A DNA stretch of 64,000 nucleotides from contig JARLJI010000244.1 of the NCBI GenBank assembly GCA_031291295.1, positions 55,078 through 119,077 on the forward strand, in the 5' to 3' direction. Positions 1-63,358 of the stretch are shown piece by piece (the stretch's first letter is position 1; every line of letters begins with the position of its first letter). Below the pieces are notes generated by a model that worked only from the letters and a program-made list of their open reading frames with translations, ran no database searches and had not been told where the DNA came from. Source of the stretch: Rhodoferax sp. (GTDB taxonomy: Bacteria; Pseudomonadota; Gammaproteobacteria; Burkholderiales; Burkholderiaceae_C). The translations under genes and the position numbers were made by a program.

Positions 1-1052
1 CCCATGGGATTGACTCGGGCCGGGTCGAGCCCCAGCGTGTTGATGACCGCCAGCGACTGCGCGGCAAAGGCTTCGTTGAGCTCGATCCAGTCCATGTCGT
101 CCAGCGTGAGGCCGGCGTAGCGCAGCGCCGCCGGGATCGCCTCGATCGGGCCGATGCCCATGAGGTGCGGCGGCACGCCGCGGCTGGCGTAGCTGACAAA
201 GCGCGCCAGCGGCGTGAGGCCGAAACGCTGGATGGCCGCCTCACTCGCCAGGATCAGCGCGCCCGCGCCATCCGAGGTTTGCGAGCTGTTGCCGGCCGTG
301 ACCGAGCCGCGCGCCGCAAACACGGTCTTGAGCCTGGCCAGGCCTTCAACGGTGGTGTCGGGGCGCGCGCCTTCGTCAAGGCTCACGGTGCGCTTGGTGA
401 CGCTGACTTCGGCCGAGTCCAGGTCCACGGAGCGTTCGGCAACTTCAACCGGCGTAATCTCGTCGGTGAACTCGCCGGCTTTCATCGCGGCGACGGCCTT
501 CATGTTCGACCGATACGCAAACTCGTCCTGCGCCTCACGGCTCACCTTCCACTGCTGCGCGACCTTCTCGGCCGTCAGGCCCATGCCGTAGGCGATGCCG
601 TAGCTCTCGACATCGTCGGTGTTGGCGAAAATGGTGGGCGAGAGACTGGGCGAGTTGCCCATCATCGGCACCATGCTCATGCTCTCGGTGCCGGCGGCGA
701 TCATCACGTCGGCCTCGCCCACGCGGATGCGGTCGGCCGCCATCTGCACGGCCGACAGGCCCGAGGCGCAAAAGCGGTTCACGGTGATGCCGCCCACGCT
801 CTTGGGCAGGCCCGCGAGGATGGCGCCGATGCGCGCCACGTTCAGGCCCTGCTGGGCCTCGGGAATCGCGCAGCCGCAGATCACGTCTTCAATGGCCTTC
901 GGGTCCAGCCCCGGCACCTGCGCCAGCGCCGCACGCAGCGCCGTGGCCAGCAGGTCGTCCGGGCGGGTGTTGCGGAAGAACCCGCGGTGCGAACGCCCGA
1001 TCGGCGTGCGCGTGGCGGCAACGATGTAGGCGTCTTGAACTTGTTTGCTCAT
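1..1052 (-). CDS. fadA: Thiolase / acetyl-CoA acyltransferase (FadA-like), truncated by window start
   Basis: Reverse frame from ATG at 1052: MSKQVQDAYIVAATRTPIGRSHRGFFRNTRPDDLLATAL..., with thiolase motif VNRFCASGLSAVQMAADRI and NEAFAAQSLAV; no stop before the window edge. Confidence 0.9.
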   Translation of the reverse strand, partial: MSKQVQDAYIVAATRTPIGRSHRGFFRNTRPDDLLATALRAALAQVPGLDPKAIEDVICGCAIPEAQQGLNVARIGAILAGLPKSVGGITVNRFCASGLSAVQMAADRIRVGEADVMIAAGTESMSMVPMMGNSPSLSPTIFANTDDVESYGIAYGMGLTAEKVAQQWKVSREAQDEFAYRSNMKAVAAMKAGEFTDEITPVEVAERSVDLDSAEVSVTKRTVSLDEGARPDTTVEGLARLKTVFAARGSVTAGNSSQTSDGAGALILASEAAIQRFGLTPLARFVSYASRGVPPHLMGIGPIEAIPAALRYAGLTLDDMDWIELNEAFAAQSLAVINTLGLDPARVNPM

Positions 1053-1468
1053 GATGAAGCTCCTGGGTGGTTTTGCTCCTTCCCCCTCCGGGGGAAGGCT
1101 GGGATGGGGGCCGGCACCGCCAGCGCAGCCAGGCGATCAGCAATCACCTGAAGCACCCCATCGAGATTGAGAAACGGTGCATTCGTCGGAAAGCGCAACA
1201 CTTCGAACCCATGTGCGCGAAAAAACGCATCGCGCCTCGCATCGTAGGCTTCCTGATCCTGATGCTGCGATCCGTCGAGTTCAACGACCAATTTGGGATA
1301 CAGGCAAGTGAAATCGGCGATGTAGCTGCCCAGCGGGTGCTGGCGCCGAAACTTCACGCCCAATTGCTCGCCGCGCAGACGCGACCACAGCTTGCGCTCA
1401 GAGTCGGTCATCGCCGTGCGCAAGGCACGCGCATTGGTCTGCGCGGCGGGAGTGGATTGGTGTTGCAC
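1049..1468 (-). CDS. DUF559 domain-containing (endonuclease-like) protein
   Basis: LWSRLRGEQLGVKFRRQHPLGSYIADFTCLYPKLVVELDGSQH...DARRDAFFRAHGFEVLRF is typical DUF559; GTG start; C-terminus runs through the left repeat. Confidence 0.85.
   Translation of the reverse strand: MQHQSTPAAQTNARALRTAMTDSERKLWSRLRGEQLGVKFRRQHPLGSYIADFTCLYPKLVVELDGSQHQDQEAYDARRDAFFRAHGFEVLRFPTNAPFLNLDGVLQVIADRLAALAVPAPIPAFPRRGKEQNHPGASS
1075..1111. repeat. Left inverted repeat flanking DUF559 gene (CTTCCCCC-rich palindrome)
   Basis: GCTCCTTCCCCCTCCGGGGGAAGGCTGGGATGGGGGC; near-complement of 1493-1534. Confidence 0.8.
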
Positions 1469-1492
1469 GATGGCGTGGTTTGTGGCGCTTTG

Positions 1493-1534
1493 CCCCCATC
1501 CCTGCCTTCCCCCAGAGGGGGAAGGAGAAGGGCA
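1493..1534. repeat. Right inverted repeat flanking DUF559 gene
   Basis: GCCCCCATCCCTGCCTTCCCCCAGAGGGGGAAGGAGAAGGGC; reverse complement closely matches 1075-1111. Confidence 0.8.
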
Positions 1535-1539
1535 AAGGG

Positions 1540-3939
1540 TCAGTTCCGTACGGGTTTTCCTGTGCTGAGCATGCCCATGATGCGTTCCTGGGTCTTCGGG
1601 TGTTCCAGCAGCGCGCCGAAGGCGCGGCGTTCCAGCGTCATTACGTATTCCTCCGTCACCAGCGTGCCGGCGTCCACGTCACCGCCCGTGACCACGCCGG
1701 CAATCAGGCTGGCAATGTGAAAGTCGTGCTGGCTGATAAAGCCGCCGTCGCGCATGTTCACGAGCTGCCCCTGGATGGTGGCCCGGCCAGCGCGCCCGGC
1801 CACCGGGAACAGGCGCTTGTGCGGCGCGCGGTAGCCGCCCAGCGCCATCGCCTTCGCTTCGTTCAGCGCCACGAACAGCAGTTCGTCCTTGTTCGGCACG
1901 AACAGGTCGCTGTCCAGCAGGTAGCCGAGCTTGCGCGATTCGAGCGCGCTGGTGCCGACCTTGGCCATGGCGGCCGCGGTAAAGCCTTCGGTCAAAAACG
2001 GCAGCAGATCCTTGCCCGTACTGGTGGCCGCGTTCTCGGCGGCGCGCCGGGCGATGTAGGTCAGGCCGCCGGCGCCGGGCACCAGGCCCACGCCCACTTC
2101 GACCAGACCGATGTAGCTCTCCATATGGACCACGCGGCGTGCCGAGTACGCGGCCATTTCGCAGCCGCCGCCCAGCGCCAGGCCGCGCACGGCAGACACC
2201 ACCGGCACGCTGGCGTAGCGCAGCTTGAGCATGATGCGCTGCAGTTCATGCTCGGCCTCGTCGATGGCGGCGACGCCGCCGACCATGAAGCCCGGCAGCA
2301 TGGCCTGCAGGTCGGCGCCGGCGCTGAAGGGCTCGTCGCCCGACCAGATCACCACGCCCTGATAGTCCTTCTCGGCCAGGTCCACCGCCAGCGACAGGCC
2401 TTCGGCCACGTCCGGGCTGATGGCGTGCATCTTGGTCTTGATGCTGGCGATGACGACCTCATCATCGAGCGTCCACAGGCGGATCGCGGCGTCTTCGTGC
2501 AGCGTCTTGCCGGCCGTCCTGAAATCGGGCAGGGACTCGCCCCGCAATTTCTCGGGAAAATGCTGCCTAGCGTAGACGGGCAGCGCACGTCGCGCTATAA
2601 ATTTCTGAGCAGATGCGCTCCACGAGCCGGCTGCCGTGTGCACGCCACCGGCCTCGGGCACGGGGCCGGTGAACACCCAATCGGGCAGCGGCGCCCTGGA
2701 CAGCGCCTTGCCTGCATCGATGTCCTCCTGCACCATCTTCGCCACCTCGACCCAGCCCGCTTCCTGCCAGAGCTCGAACGGCCCCTGCTGCATGCCGAAG
2801 CCCCAGCGCAGGCACAAGTCCACGTCGCGCGCGGTCTCGGCGATGGTGGCCAGGTGCACGGCCGCATAGTGAAAGCTGTTGCGCAGGATCGCCCACAGAA
2901 AGCGTCCTTGGGCGCCCTCGCTGTCCCGCAGCAGCTTCAGACGCTCGCCCGCAGGCTTCTTGAGCATGCGGGCGTAGACCTCGTCGGCCTTCGCGCCGGC
3001 GGGCACGTAATCCTTGCTCGCGAGATCGAAGCGCAGCACGTCGCGCCCCACCTTCTTGTAGAAGCCCGCCTTGGTCTTCTGGCCCAGGTTACCGAGTTCC
3101 AGCAGAGTCTTGAGCACCTCGGGCGTGCCAAAGCTCGCGTAGAACGGGTCGCTCTGTTCGTTCAGATTGTTCTGCAGCGTCTCTATCACGTGGGCCATGG
3201 TGTCCAGGCCCACCACGTCGGCGGTGCGGAAGGTGCCCGAGCTCGCGCGGCCCAGCTTCCTGCCCGTGAGGTCGTCCACCACGTCGAACGTCAGGCCGAA
3301 GTTGTCCACCTCCTTCATGGTCGCCAGCATGCCGGCGATGCCGACGCGGTTGGCTATGATGTTGGGCGTGTCGGGCGCGCCCACCACGCCCTTGCCCAGG
3401 CCGCTGGTGACGAAGGTTTCCAGATCGTCGAGAATTTGCGGCTCGGTGGTCGGCGTGTTGATCAGCTCCACCAAGTACATATAGCGCGGCGGGTTGAAGA
3501 AGTGGATGCCACAAAAGCGCGGCTTGATTTCCCCGGGCAGCGCCTCGCTGAGCTTGGTGATGGACAGGCCCGAGGTGTTGGACGCCACGATGGCGTGCGG
3601 CGCAAGAAACGGCGCGATCTTGCGGTACAGGTCGAGCTTCCAGTCCATGCGCTCGGCGATGGCCTCGATCACCAGATCGCACTCCTTGAGCACGTCCATG
3701 TGCTCTTCGTAGTTGGCCTGCTGGATCAGCACGGCATCGTCCGCCACGCCCAGCGGCGACGGCTTGAGCTTCTTCAGGCCCTCGATGGCGCGGGTGACGA
3801 TGCCGTTTTTCGGACCATCCTTGGCGGGCAGGTCGAACAGCACCACCGGCACGCGGACATTGACCAGGTGCGCCGCGATCTGCGCACCCATCACACCGGC
3901 GCCGAGCACGGCGACTTTGCGAACTTGAAATCGGTTCAT
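1540..3939 (-). CDS. fadB: 3-hydroxyacyl-CoA dehydrogenase / enoyl-CoA hydratase (FadB-like)
   Basis: MNRFQVRKVAVLGAGVMGAQIAAHL..., HFFNPPRYMYLVELI, C-terminal crotonase region EPFSAGADLQAML. Confidence 0.9.
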   Translation of the reverse strand: MNRFQVRKVAVLGAGVMGAQIAAHLVNVRVPVVLFDLPAKDGPKNGIVTRAIEGLKKLKPSPLGVADDAVLIQQANYEEHMDVLKECDLVIEAIAERMDWKLDLYRKIAPFLAPHAIVASNTSGLSITKLSEALPGEIKPRFCGIHFFNPPRYMYLVELINTPTTEPQILDDLETFVTSGLGKGVVGAPDTPNIIANRVGIAGMLATMKEVDNFGLTFDVVDDLTGRKLGRASSGTFRTADVVGLDTMAHVIETLQNNLNEQSDPFYASFGTPEVLKTLLELGNLGQKTKAGFYKKVGRDVLRFDLASKDYVPAGAKADEVYARMLKKPAGERLKLLRDSEGAQGRFLWAILRNSFHYAAVHLATIAETARDVDLCLRWGFGMQQGPFELWQEAGWVEVAKMVQEDIDAGKALSRAPLPDWVFTGPVPEAGGVHTAAGSWSASAQKFIARRALPVYARQHFPEKLRGESLPDFRTAGKTLHEDAAIRLWTLDDEVVIASIKTKMHAISPDVAEGLSLAVDLAEKDYQGVVIWSGDEPFSAGADLQAMLPGFMVGGVAAIDEAEHELQRIMLKLRYASVPVVSAVRGLALGGGCEMAAYSARRVVHMESYIGLVEVGVGLVPGAGGLTYIARRAAENAATSTGKDLLPFLTEGFTAAAMAKVGTSALESRKLGYLLDSDLFVPNKDELLFVALNEAKAMALGGYRAPHKRLFPVAGRAGRATIQGQLVNMRDGGFISQHDFHIASLIAGVVTGGDVDAGTLVTEEYVMTLERRAFGALLEHPKTQERIMGMLSTGKPVRN

Positions 3940-3971
3940 GAGTTTTCCAGAAAAGAGTTTGCGATGCGCCG

Positions 3972-4412
3972 TCACTCGACGCGCAGCCACACCTGGGTGC
4001 GGTAGAACGGACCCAGGTAGCCACGCACCTCGAGCTTCTTGCCGCCGTCCACGGGTTTGAGGCGGGTGCGGTAGACCTTGCCGTTGTTCGGGTCGACAAT
4101 GTCGCCGCCGTCCCACACGGTCTTGTCGTCGGCACTTTGCTTGAGGTGACGCAGGATGGTCAGCCCCACCAGCGGCTTGTCCTTGCGATCGTCGGTGCAT
4201 TTGTCGCACACGGCGTCGGGCTTGGCGGCGGCAGGGTCCAGCAGCTTCTCGATGCTGCCGCTGTACACGCCCGCGTTGTCCTTGATGCGCACCAGGGATT
4301 TTTCGGCCTTGGTGTCGTCGTCAATGGTTTTCCATACACCGACCGGGCTCATCTGCGCCATCGCAGAGGTGCCAAACGCTACAAAACCAATAGCAATCAG
4401 TGCTTTAAACAT
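3972..4412 (-). CDS. DUF2147 domain-containing secreted protein
   Basis: MFKALIAIGFVAFGTSAMAQ signal peptide, then SPVGVWKTIDDDTKAEKSLVRI... Confidence 0.8.
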   Translation of the reverse strand: MFKALIAIGFVAFGTSAMAQMSPVGVWKTIDDDTKAEKSLVRIKDNAGVYSGSIEKLLDPAAAKPDAVCDKCTDDRKDKPLVGLTILRHLKQSADDKTVWDGGDIVDPNNGKVYRTRLKPVDGGKKLEVRGYLGPFYRTQVWLRVE

Positions 4413-59928: not shown

Positions 59929-59983
59929 TATCGTGCCACCCCAGATCCGATCCACACCCAACGCTGCCCCGCATGGAGACACC

Positions 59984-62900
59984 ATGACCGACCTGTCCGC
60001 TGAATACCAGGCCCTTGCCAACTACCGCCCCACGCACAAGGTGCGCTTCGTCACGGCCGCCAGCCTGTTCGACGGGCACGACGCGGCCATCAACATCATG
60101 CGGCGCATCCTGCAGGGCATGGGCGCCGAGGTCATCCACCTGGGCCACAACCGCAGCGTGGACGAGGTCGTGACCGCCGCGCTGCAGGAAGACGCGCAGG
60201 GCATCGCCATCAGCAGCTACCAGGGCGGGCACGTGGAGTACTTCAAGTACATGGTGGACCTGCTCAAAAGCCGCGGCGGCGAACACATCCAGGTCTTTGG
60301 CGGCGGCGGCGGCGTGATCGTGCCGCCCGAGATCCGCGAGCTGCAGGCCTACGGCGTGGCGCGCATCTTCAGCCCCGAAGACGGCCAGAAGATGGGCCTG
60401 GCCGGCATGATCGGCGAGATGGTGATGCGCTGCGACAAGGACCTCAGCGGCTTCGCGCCGAAGGACATTGCTGCCATCCAGGGCCACGGCGAGATGGCCT
60501 GGCGCGCGCTGGCCCAGTTGATCACGGCCCTCGAAAATGCTGCGGGCCCGGCGGCAGGCGAAAGCGCCGATCCCAAATTGGCGACGCTGGTCCAGACCCT
60601 GCGCACCCAGGCGGCGGCGAAGAAGGTGCCCGTGCTCGGCATCACCGGCACCGGCGGCGCCGGCAAGTCATCGCTCACGGACGAGCTGATCCGGCGCCTG
60701 CGGCTGGACCAGAACGACAGCCTGCGCGTGGCGGTGATCAGCATCGACCCGTCACGCCGCAAGAGCGGCGGCGCGCTCTTGGGCGACCGCATCCGCATGA
60801 ATGCCATTGGTCCATGGCGCAAGCCGCTGCCTGCCAAGGGGGCCGGCAAGCCGGCCGCGGCCGCCGCCGACAACGGCCAACGGGTGTTCATGCGCAGCCT
60901 GGCCACGCGCGACTTCGGCTCCGAAATCAGCGCCGCGCTGCCTGACGTGATCGCCGCCTGCAAGGTGGCGGGTTTTGATCTGATCGTGGTGGAAACCTCG
61001 GGCATCCGCCAGGGCGACGCCGCCATCGTGCCGCACGTGGACGTGCCCATGTACGTGATGACGCCCGAGTTCGGCGCCGCCAGCCAGCTGGAAAAAATCG
61101 ACATGCTGGACTTCGCCGAGTTCGTGGCCATCAACAAGTTCGACCGCAAGGGCGCGCTCGACGCGCTGCGCGACGTGGCCAAGCAGGTGCAGCGCAACAA
61201 GGAGGCCTGGACCACGCCGCCGGATCAGATGCCGGTGTTCGGCACCATGGCCGCGCGCTTCAACGACGACGGCGTGACCGCGCTGTACCAGGCCCTCAGC
61301 GTGCGCCTGGCCGAATTGGGCCTCAAGCTCGGCAAATCCAGCCTGCCGCACGTGAGCGTGCGGCACAGCACGAACCAGACGCCGGTGGTGCCGGCGGCGC
61401 GCACGCGGTATCTGGCAGAGATCAGCGACACCGTGCGCGGCTACAAGAAACGCGCGCGCGAACAGGCCCAACTGGCGCGCGAGATCCAGCAGCTGCGCGC
61501 CGCCGCCGCCATGCTGACCGTGGCCAAGCCGGACAAGGCGCGCGCCGCCGAGGCCGCCATCGACCTGGCCGTGGCGCGCGAGCAGACGCAGGACCCGCCC
61601 GCCAAAAAGCTGCTGGCGCAGTGGCCCGAAATGCAGAAGGCCTATGCCGGCGACGAGTACGTGGTGAAGATCCGCGACAAGGAAATCCGCACCGCACTCA
61701 CCACCAGGAGCCTGTCGGGCACCACCATCCGCAAGGTGGCACTGCCGCAGTACCAGGACCACGGCGAGATCCTGCAATGGCTGATGCTGGACAACGTGCC
61801 CGGCAGCTACCCCTACACCGCCGGCACCTTCGCGTTCAAGCGCGAGGGCGAGGATCCGACCCGCATGTTCGCGGGCGAGGGCGACGCCTTTCGCACCAAC
61901 ACCCGCTTCAAGCTGCTGAGCTCGGGCATGGCGGCCAAGCGGCTCTCGACCGCGTTTGACAGCGTGACCCTGTACGGCAACGACCCCGATCCGCGTCCCG
62001 ACATCTACGGCAAGGTCGGCAACTCGGGCGTGTCGATCGCCACGCTGGACGACATGAAGGTGCTGTACGGCGGTTTTGACCTGTGCAGCCCGTCGACGTC
62101 GGTCTCCATGACGATCAACGGCCCGGCGCCGACCATCCTGGCGATGTTCATGAACACCGCGATCGACCAGAACATCGACAAGTTCAAACAGGACAACGGC
62201 CGCGAGCCGACGGAGACCGAGACGGCCAAGATCAAGGAGTGGGTGCAGGAGAACGTGCGCGGTACGGTGCAGGCCGACATCCTCAAGGAAGACCAGGGCC
62301 AGAACACCTGCATCTTCTCGACCGAGTTCAGCCTCAAGGTGATGGGCGACATCGCCGAGTACTTCGTGCACAACCGGGTGCGCAACTTCTACAGCGTGTC
62401 CATCAGCGGCTACCACATCGCCGAGGCCGGCGCGAACCCGATCAGCCAGCTCGCCTTCACGCTGTCCAACGGCTTCACCTTTGTGGAAGCGTACCTGGCG
62501 CGCGGCATGCACATCGACGACTTCGCGCCCAACCTGAGCTTCTTCTTCAGCAACGGCATGGACCCCGAGTACACCGTGATGGGCCGCGTGGCGCGGCGCA
62601 TCTGGGCGGTGGCGATGAAAGAGAAATATGGCGCGAACGAACGCAGCCAGAAGCTCAAGTACCACATCCAGACCAGTGGCCGCAGCCTGCACGCGCAGGA
62701 GATCCAGTTCAACGACATCCGCACCACCTTGCAGGCGCTGATCGCGATCTACGACAACTGCAACTCGCTGCACACCAACGCCTTCGACGAGGCCATCACC
62801 ACGCCGACCGAGGATTCGGTGCGCCGCGCGATGGCGATCCAGCTCATCATCAACCGCGAGTGGGGCCTGTCCAAGAACGAGAACCCGAACCAGGGCAGCT

Positions 62901-63358
62901 TCATCATCGAGGAGCTGACCGAGCTGGTCGAAGAAGCCGTGCTACTGGAATTCGAACGCATCGCCGAGCGCGGTGGCGTATTGGGCGCCATGGAAACCGG
63001 CTACCAGCGCGGGCGCATCCAGGACGAGTCGATGCACTACGAGATGCTCAAGCACACGGGCGAGCTGCCGATCGTGGGCGTCAACACCTTCCGCAACCCG
63101 CATGGCGATGCCGTGCAGGACAAGCTGGAGCTGGCGCGCTCCACCGACGAGGAAAAGCAGGGCCAGCTGAAACGGCTGGCCGACTTCCACCAGCGCCACG
63201 CCAAGGAATCCCCCGCGATGCTCAAGACACTGCAGCTCGCCGTGATCGAGAACAAAAACGTGTTCGAGGTGCTGATGCAGGCCGTGCGCGTGTGTTCGCT
63301 GGGCCAGATCACGAATGCGCTGTTCGAGGTCGGCGGGCAGTACCGGCGCAATATGTGA
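59984..63358 (+). CDS. icmF: Fused isobutyryl-CoA mutase (B12-binding, MeaB-like GTPase, mutase)
   Basis: [40 protein letters not shown]-loop [19 protein letters not shown]-terminal mutase region. Confidence 0.93.

Follow-up and report, generated by a model that had tools for sequence, protein, structure and literature searches.

A DUF559 Nuclease as the Probable Companion of BoxC/PIT/TM Triplex-Forming Repeats

Introduction

BoxC/PIT/TM repeats were first seen in Escherichia coli in the 1990s, are among the commonest repeats of bacteria, and are tied to genome instability. To our knowledge, some thirty years have brought to light no gene that makes or uses them. Holder et al. found their motif, a G/C-rich intrastrand triplex, in over 260 genomes, including those of E. 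coli and Synechocystis, and counted 23 copies in MG1655, some as inverted pairs; mobility functions were never found beside the motif, and its neighbors belonged to no functional class (PMC4666352). The repeats analyzed here resemble these elements in having a C/T stem, a G/A stem, and a G-rich mirror tail able to form a purine-motif triplex, and in being intergenic and sometimes arranged as inverted pairs. The literature, however, presents such repeats without an associated gene, whereas those reported here flank DUF559 genes, and their number depends on these.

Another point of comparison is the REPtron, that is, a RAYT (TnpA-REP) gene with its REP or REPIN sequences (PMC8266576). The likeness lies in a small, single-copy nuclease gene situated between inverted palindromes, in scattered gene-less inverted pairs, and in the covariation of gene and repeat. 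The enzymes differ, as RAYT is an HUH Y1 enzyme (PF01797) whereas the protein of our locus belongs to PF04480 and is of the PD-(D/E)XK/EDxHD type. The repeats differ too, in that REPs have a GTAG-type tag, whereas DUF559 repeats have a triplex tail and no tag. Both features tested, the HUH Y1 transposase and the GTAG/CGTC tag, thus place the locus outside the RAYT group.

The direct members of the DUF559/YcjD family include NGO0050 (PDB 3hrl), Caulobacter VsrA (PMC12907096), and E. coli YcjD (PMC1189080); none of these sources connects the proteins to repeats, whereas here DUF559 is tied to them. The homing endonuclease I-Bth0305I (PDB 3r3p) shares the fold of the catalytic domain and the E-D-x-H-D residues, but it is intron-encoded and has one target gene, whereas DUF559 is a stand-alone catalytic domain, without an intron, that lies between repeats. 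A Vsr repair system would be marked by nicking at T:G mismatches and by linkage to a cytosine methylase; the neighbors of the DUF559 gene studied here are fadB and thiolase. We propose that DUF559 is probably the companion nuclease of the BoxC/PIT/TM repeats, in a REPtron-like partnership in which it processes them and probably also spreads or maintains them.

The DUF559 Locus and Its Repeats

The window, by which we mean the whole 64,000-nucleotide stretch of DNA that was analyzed, contains the following features.

1049..1468, minus strand: DUF559 gene, 139 aa, EDxHD/Vsr-like PD-(D/E)XK nuclease (E24, D52, D65, H69, D76), assigned by PF04480, AlphaFold, fold match, and conserved catalytic residues
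1076..1111, plus strand: left repeat (3′ of the gene), TM/BoxC-type, hairpin 1078-1098 and tail CTGGGATGGGGGC into the gene
1492..1527, minus strand: right repeat (5′ of the gene), TM/BoxC-type, hairpin 1505-1525 and tail CAGGGATGGGGGC into the gene
1052..1111, minus strand: C-terminal extension of the DUF559 protein (roughly residues 120-139), derived from both repeat and flank and modeled as unstructured
3..1052, minus strand: thiolase, downstream operon neighbor, whose ATG overlaps the DUF559 stop
1540..4209, minus strand: fadB-like gene, upstream neighbor; relatives have an empty site at the fadB-thiolase junction
60825..60869, plus strand: repeat-free linker in an isobutyryl-CoA-mutase-like fusion gene (59933-63358), of which the near-identical copy G000:C16:349373-350189 has an in-frame gene-less repeat pair there

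The left copy, CTCCTTCCCCCTCCGGGGGAAGGCTGGGATGGGGGC (1076-1111, +), recurs in inverted orientation at 1492-1527 (-) with 34 of 36 bases identical, and the gene between the two matched PF04480 in a profile search (E 7e-36; 123 bits against a curated cut-off of 20.6). The earlier note, made from the sequence alone, had described a DUF559 gene framed by inverted near-identical repeats between thiolase and fadB-like genes, and both the frame and the two neighbors are confirmed. Its view that the C-terminus is repeat-derived also holds: the flank and the left repeat encode the last 20 or so residues, which have no structure in the AlphaFold model. Its description of each repeat as a palindrome is correct in that the stem is a perfect 9 bp around a 3-base loop, but the repeat is more than a palindrome, having a 3′ G-rich tail as well; both tails point toward the gene.

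The DUF559 TGA and the thiolase ATG overlap as ATGA (1052-1049). The window gene is the only DUF559 copy in the 4.9-Mb genome, and the motif CTTCCCCCN{3,12}GGGGGAAG occurs at two sites in the whole window, which are the two DUF559 flanks. The window unit contains no transposase, and an Rfam search returned no family and one chance match only. A defense system at this locus was considered and rejected, as PADLOC gave merely a weak match to a DpdF domain.

Association of DUF559 with Repeats across Bacteria

Full-length stand-alone DUF559 is encoded in 19 of the 151 genomes of the family that we surveyed. Hairpins adjoin the gene in all 19, and their sequence varies from genome to genome (CCTTCCCCC, CCCTCTCCCGC, CCCTCCCCTGC, CCTCCCCC). 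Further loci were picked blind to repeats, 80 through a genome scan and 30 as the best Pfam matches in the phylum. A de novo inverted-repeat test (score of at least 16) was positive at 83 of 120 DUF559 loci, compared with 5 of 748 (0.7%) control intervals of the same size in the same DNA. With 40 loci added from multi-copy genomes, the sample grew to 161 DUF559 loci from several phyla. A strict test for hairpin and tail within 360 bp found repeats on at least one side at 123 of the 161 and on both sides at 69, against 9 and 0, respectively, of 367 control intervals. Loci with repeats on both sides are chiefly tails-inward (54/161). The pairing extends to Deinococcota and Cyanobacteriota, and in Deinococcus units the tails face outward.

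The association is firm and general across distant bacteria, and the suggested tie of the nuclease to palindromes of its own extends far beyond the locus for which it was first made. The earlier note had also asked whether the repeats always flank other DUF559 copies. Mostly they do, but the strict test leaves 38 of the 161 genes without a repeat. In at least two of these the repeat was missed, and 123 is a floor because the test passes over clear cases (L018, L025). In the open-access literature we found no prior report tying DUF559 to BoxC-type repeats, although a subscription paper could exist.

Repeat abundance depends on the gene. Copies of the strict pattern number 14 in G000 and up to 498 in other genomes. 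Ten or more are present in 15 of 19 DUF559 genomes of the family versus 5 of 132 others (Fisher p 3e-13), and in 76 of 102 DUF559 genomes of the phylum versus 14 of 297 others (Fisher p 3e-44). Across the 18 genera having both states, repeats are more numerous with DUF559 in 14, less so in 1, and tied in 3 (sign test p 0.0005). The earlier note would have taken repeats equally common away from DUF559, with no empty-site evidence, as a refutation; repeats away from the gene do occur, but the genomes that harbor them nearly always have a DUF559 gene. The repeat-rich genomes without one (G016 with 53 repeats, G143 with 31, G347 with 42, and G288 with 116) are best explained by past gene loss, as in G045. 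G016, a complete genome of the family, also has 20 Y1_Tnp matches, several of them identical, which could be read as an IS200-type expansion alongside orphan BoxC-type repeats.

The repeat variants are, moreover, gene-specific. Repeat similarity tracks the relatedness of the DUF559 proteins (Mantel r 0.29; permutation maximum 0.15), and paralogous DUF559 genes in one genome tend toward different repeats that are matched left to right (p 0.007, n = 8 vs 35). Gene-less repeat pairs, 55-100 bp apart, have the same inward layout as the gene unit.

Repeat Identity and the Triplex Signature

The window repeat is a BoxC/PIT/TM intrastrand-triplex repeat. In nearly every variant the tail mirrors the purine stem (GGGGGAAGG with GGATGGGGG; GGGAGAGGG with GGGTGAGGG; GGGGAAAGG with GGTTAGGGG), the tail-stem mirror score being 8.08 for own tails versus 7.11 (sd 0.10) for permuted ones. 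Stem A is paired to tail A/T at a ratio of 271:31, compared with about 220:80 upon permutation. The tail thus varies together with the stem, as the third strand of a triplex would, and this is expected if the purine-motif triplex matters. The left copy by itself, folded as a single strand, did no better than shuffles (z -0.4) because the shuffles are equally G+C-rich, and covariation was therefore used instead. Variant units at three loci of Pseudomonadota (L180, L181, L199) have an additional hairpin between purine stem and tail, so the tail-stem distance is flexible in some lineages.

The DUF559 Protein

The AlphaFold model of the window protein has a confident core (pLDDT 86). Its best Foldseek matches are the DUF559 protein NGO0050 (3hrl), which a PDB sequence search also retrieved (E 4e-38), and, with a TM-score of 0.77 by target, the EDxHD homing endonuclease I-Bth0305I (3r3p); Vsr matched more weakly, in keeping with the relation to Vsr and restriction-like folds that had been suggested at the outset. 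Matches to cholera/enterotoxin B in the PDB sequence search were discarded as chance-level (E >0.05) and of unrelated fold. E24, D52, D65, H69, and D76 are conserved in 170-171 of 171 sequences, with or without flanking repeats. Judged by the model and these residues, the window protein has the fold and active site of a PD-(D/E)XK/EDxHD nuclease, and DNA cleavage is predicted. In Caulobacter, the family member VsrA is induced by the SOS response and, in a methylase mutant, causes responses to DNA damage (PMC12907096), from which it follows that the family is active in vivo.

A Model for the Repeats and Alternative Explanations

If DUF559 is the nuclease partner of these repeats, the complete unit would be the gene with its two inverted repeats, and the scattered gene-less pairs would be non-autonomous derivatives of it. 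The G-rich repeat strand, when single-stranded during replication, repair, or the SOS response, would fold into a hairpin or a purine-motif triplex. The small EDxHD/Vsr-like enzyme may recognize this fold together with the cognate stem sequence and nick or cut there, and repair or template switching could then copy, maintain, or delete pairs of repeats and at times the gene unit as well. We infer that DUF559 binds and cuts the repeats and that this cutting causes them to spread.

The main rival is a repair-only role, in which DUF559 is a structure-resolving or Vsr-like repair nuclease of the host, needed by genomes rich in triplex repeats, and the flanking repeats are its own sensor or regulatory sites, with no spreading involved. 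VsrA is SOS-induced and has been suggested to act as a nuclease in mismatch repair (PMC12907096), Vsr is a relative in fold, and the gene has long been kept at one locus, all of which would suit such a role. Taken alone, however, it leaves unexplained why the gene lies inside a head-to-head pair, why paralogues have matched repeats of their own, and why gene-less copies have the identical paired architecture; we regard it as unlikely, though deserving of serious attention. A second alternative is that the repeats are independent elements spread by another agent, such as RAYT (Y1_Tnp), and gather by DUF559 because, for example, it offers a safe intergenic landing site. Repeats are indeed found at a distance from DUF559, and some genomes have them but not the gene, yet control intervals are unflanked, Y1_Tnp genes occur in 113 of the 151 family genomes irrespective of repeats and are absent from the repeat-rich G021, G044, and G075, none of 20 Y1_Tnp loci had such repeats by the strict test, and the GTAG/CGTC tag of RAYT-type REPs stands beside 5 of 194 repeats. 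RAYT was accordingly rejected as the driver of the repeats, and this alternative, largely refuted, seems to us improbable.

The idea that the hairpins terminate transcription or act as insulators, and bracket a small gene by happenstance, is more doubtful still. Stable G+C hairpins in intergenic DNA would fit it, but the U-tract is absent, the mirror covariation of the tail has no role in a terminator, other genes in the same loci lack such hairpins, and the BoxC/PIT elements that have been tested had neither promoter nor terminator activity (PMC4666352). That chance or base composition in a G+C-rich genome produced the pattern, as the low complexity of the motif might suggest, is refuted by 0 matches in 100 shuffles, by a reversed-pattern control of 0 in almost all genomes of the family and phylum counts, and by the mere 0.7% of control intervals with flanking inverted repeats. 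In three genomes of one genus without DUF559 (G382, G430, G454), the reversed control CCCYCTYCC..GGRAGRGGG occurs 10-19 times, possibly as another palindromic repeat family.

We favor a companion nuclease. Counting against it are the DUF559 genes that have no repeat in the strict test, the genomes that keep many repeats but no gene, the age and fixation of the window unit and of the E. coli zntA-tusA repeat, the one-sided repeats of E. coli ycjD, and the outward tails of Deinococcus units. If this reading is correct, a large family of "unknown function" would gain a substrate, and DUF559 might be the first enzyme specialized for a DNA triplex. DUF559 is a 12-15 kDa nuclease that is present in E. 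coli K-12 (ycjD), and the tie to it makes the origin, spread, and function of the repeats directly testable. More tentatively, and with somewhat less than even confidence, we raise the possibility of a new class of prokaryotic selfish element in which a stand-alone EDxHD nuclease recognizes intrastrand triplexes and spreads triplex-forming repeat pairs in many phyla; it would be a non-HUH counterpart of RAYT/REPIN and would account for the origin of BoxC/PIT/TM repeats.

History and Mobility of the Unit

The order fadB-DUF559-thiolase is found at 14 of the 19 family loci and also in Variovorax, Comamonas, Rhodoferax, and Herbaspirillum. Because the same junction is occupied in all of these, the window unit is old and has mostly been inherited vertically. 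The empty sites that the earlier note had proposed to look for exist: in ten relatives the fadB-thiolase junction measures 11-35 bp and has no hairpin. In G045, whose genome has 21 repeats and no stand-alone DUF559, the junction is 52 bp with a single bare hairpin, a scar of the kind that loss of the unit between its palindromes would leave. The notion of a minimal mobile or homing-like unit is supported in part, by the homing-endonuclease fold and the empty sites; present-day movement of the window unit would go beyond these observations.

In E. coli, ycjD was matched in 3369 of 5426 genomes, and three BoxC-like repeats lie downstream of it, on one side only. The strains without ycjD that we examined (ST131, O157, and others; sapF-fabI region, L265, L267-L272) have eef efflux genes in its place, so there is no clean empty ycjD allele, and E. 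coli was set aside for this comparison. The zntA-tusA repeat, the single E. coli copy that was checked, is old and fixed and showed no polymorphism.

That the DUF559-repeat system is mobile is suggested by the gene-less pairs, which are insertion-polymorphic within the genus. One such pair lies in frame in a copy of the isobutyryl-CoA-mutase-like gene on contig C16, where it serves as a protein linker (PSPLPPLGEGRDGG...PLPSPSGGGS); the linker of the window copy (60825-60869) and those of two congeners are without the repeat pair, and outgroups are without any linker there. At the gene-less pairs, neither exact insertion ends nor a target-site duplication could be read because the flanks are too diverged. 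The C16 copy (L337), a second mutase-like copy about 90% identical to window positions 59933-63358, is situated at a contig end, and since the bin is listed as 5.55% contaminated, it may derive from a close strain. Finally, in relatives without DUF559 such as L278 and L283, a gene of about 500 bp often lies between fadB and thiolase, which by eye we take to be a PaaI/DUF4442-type thioesterase.
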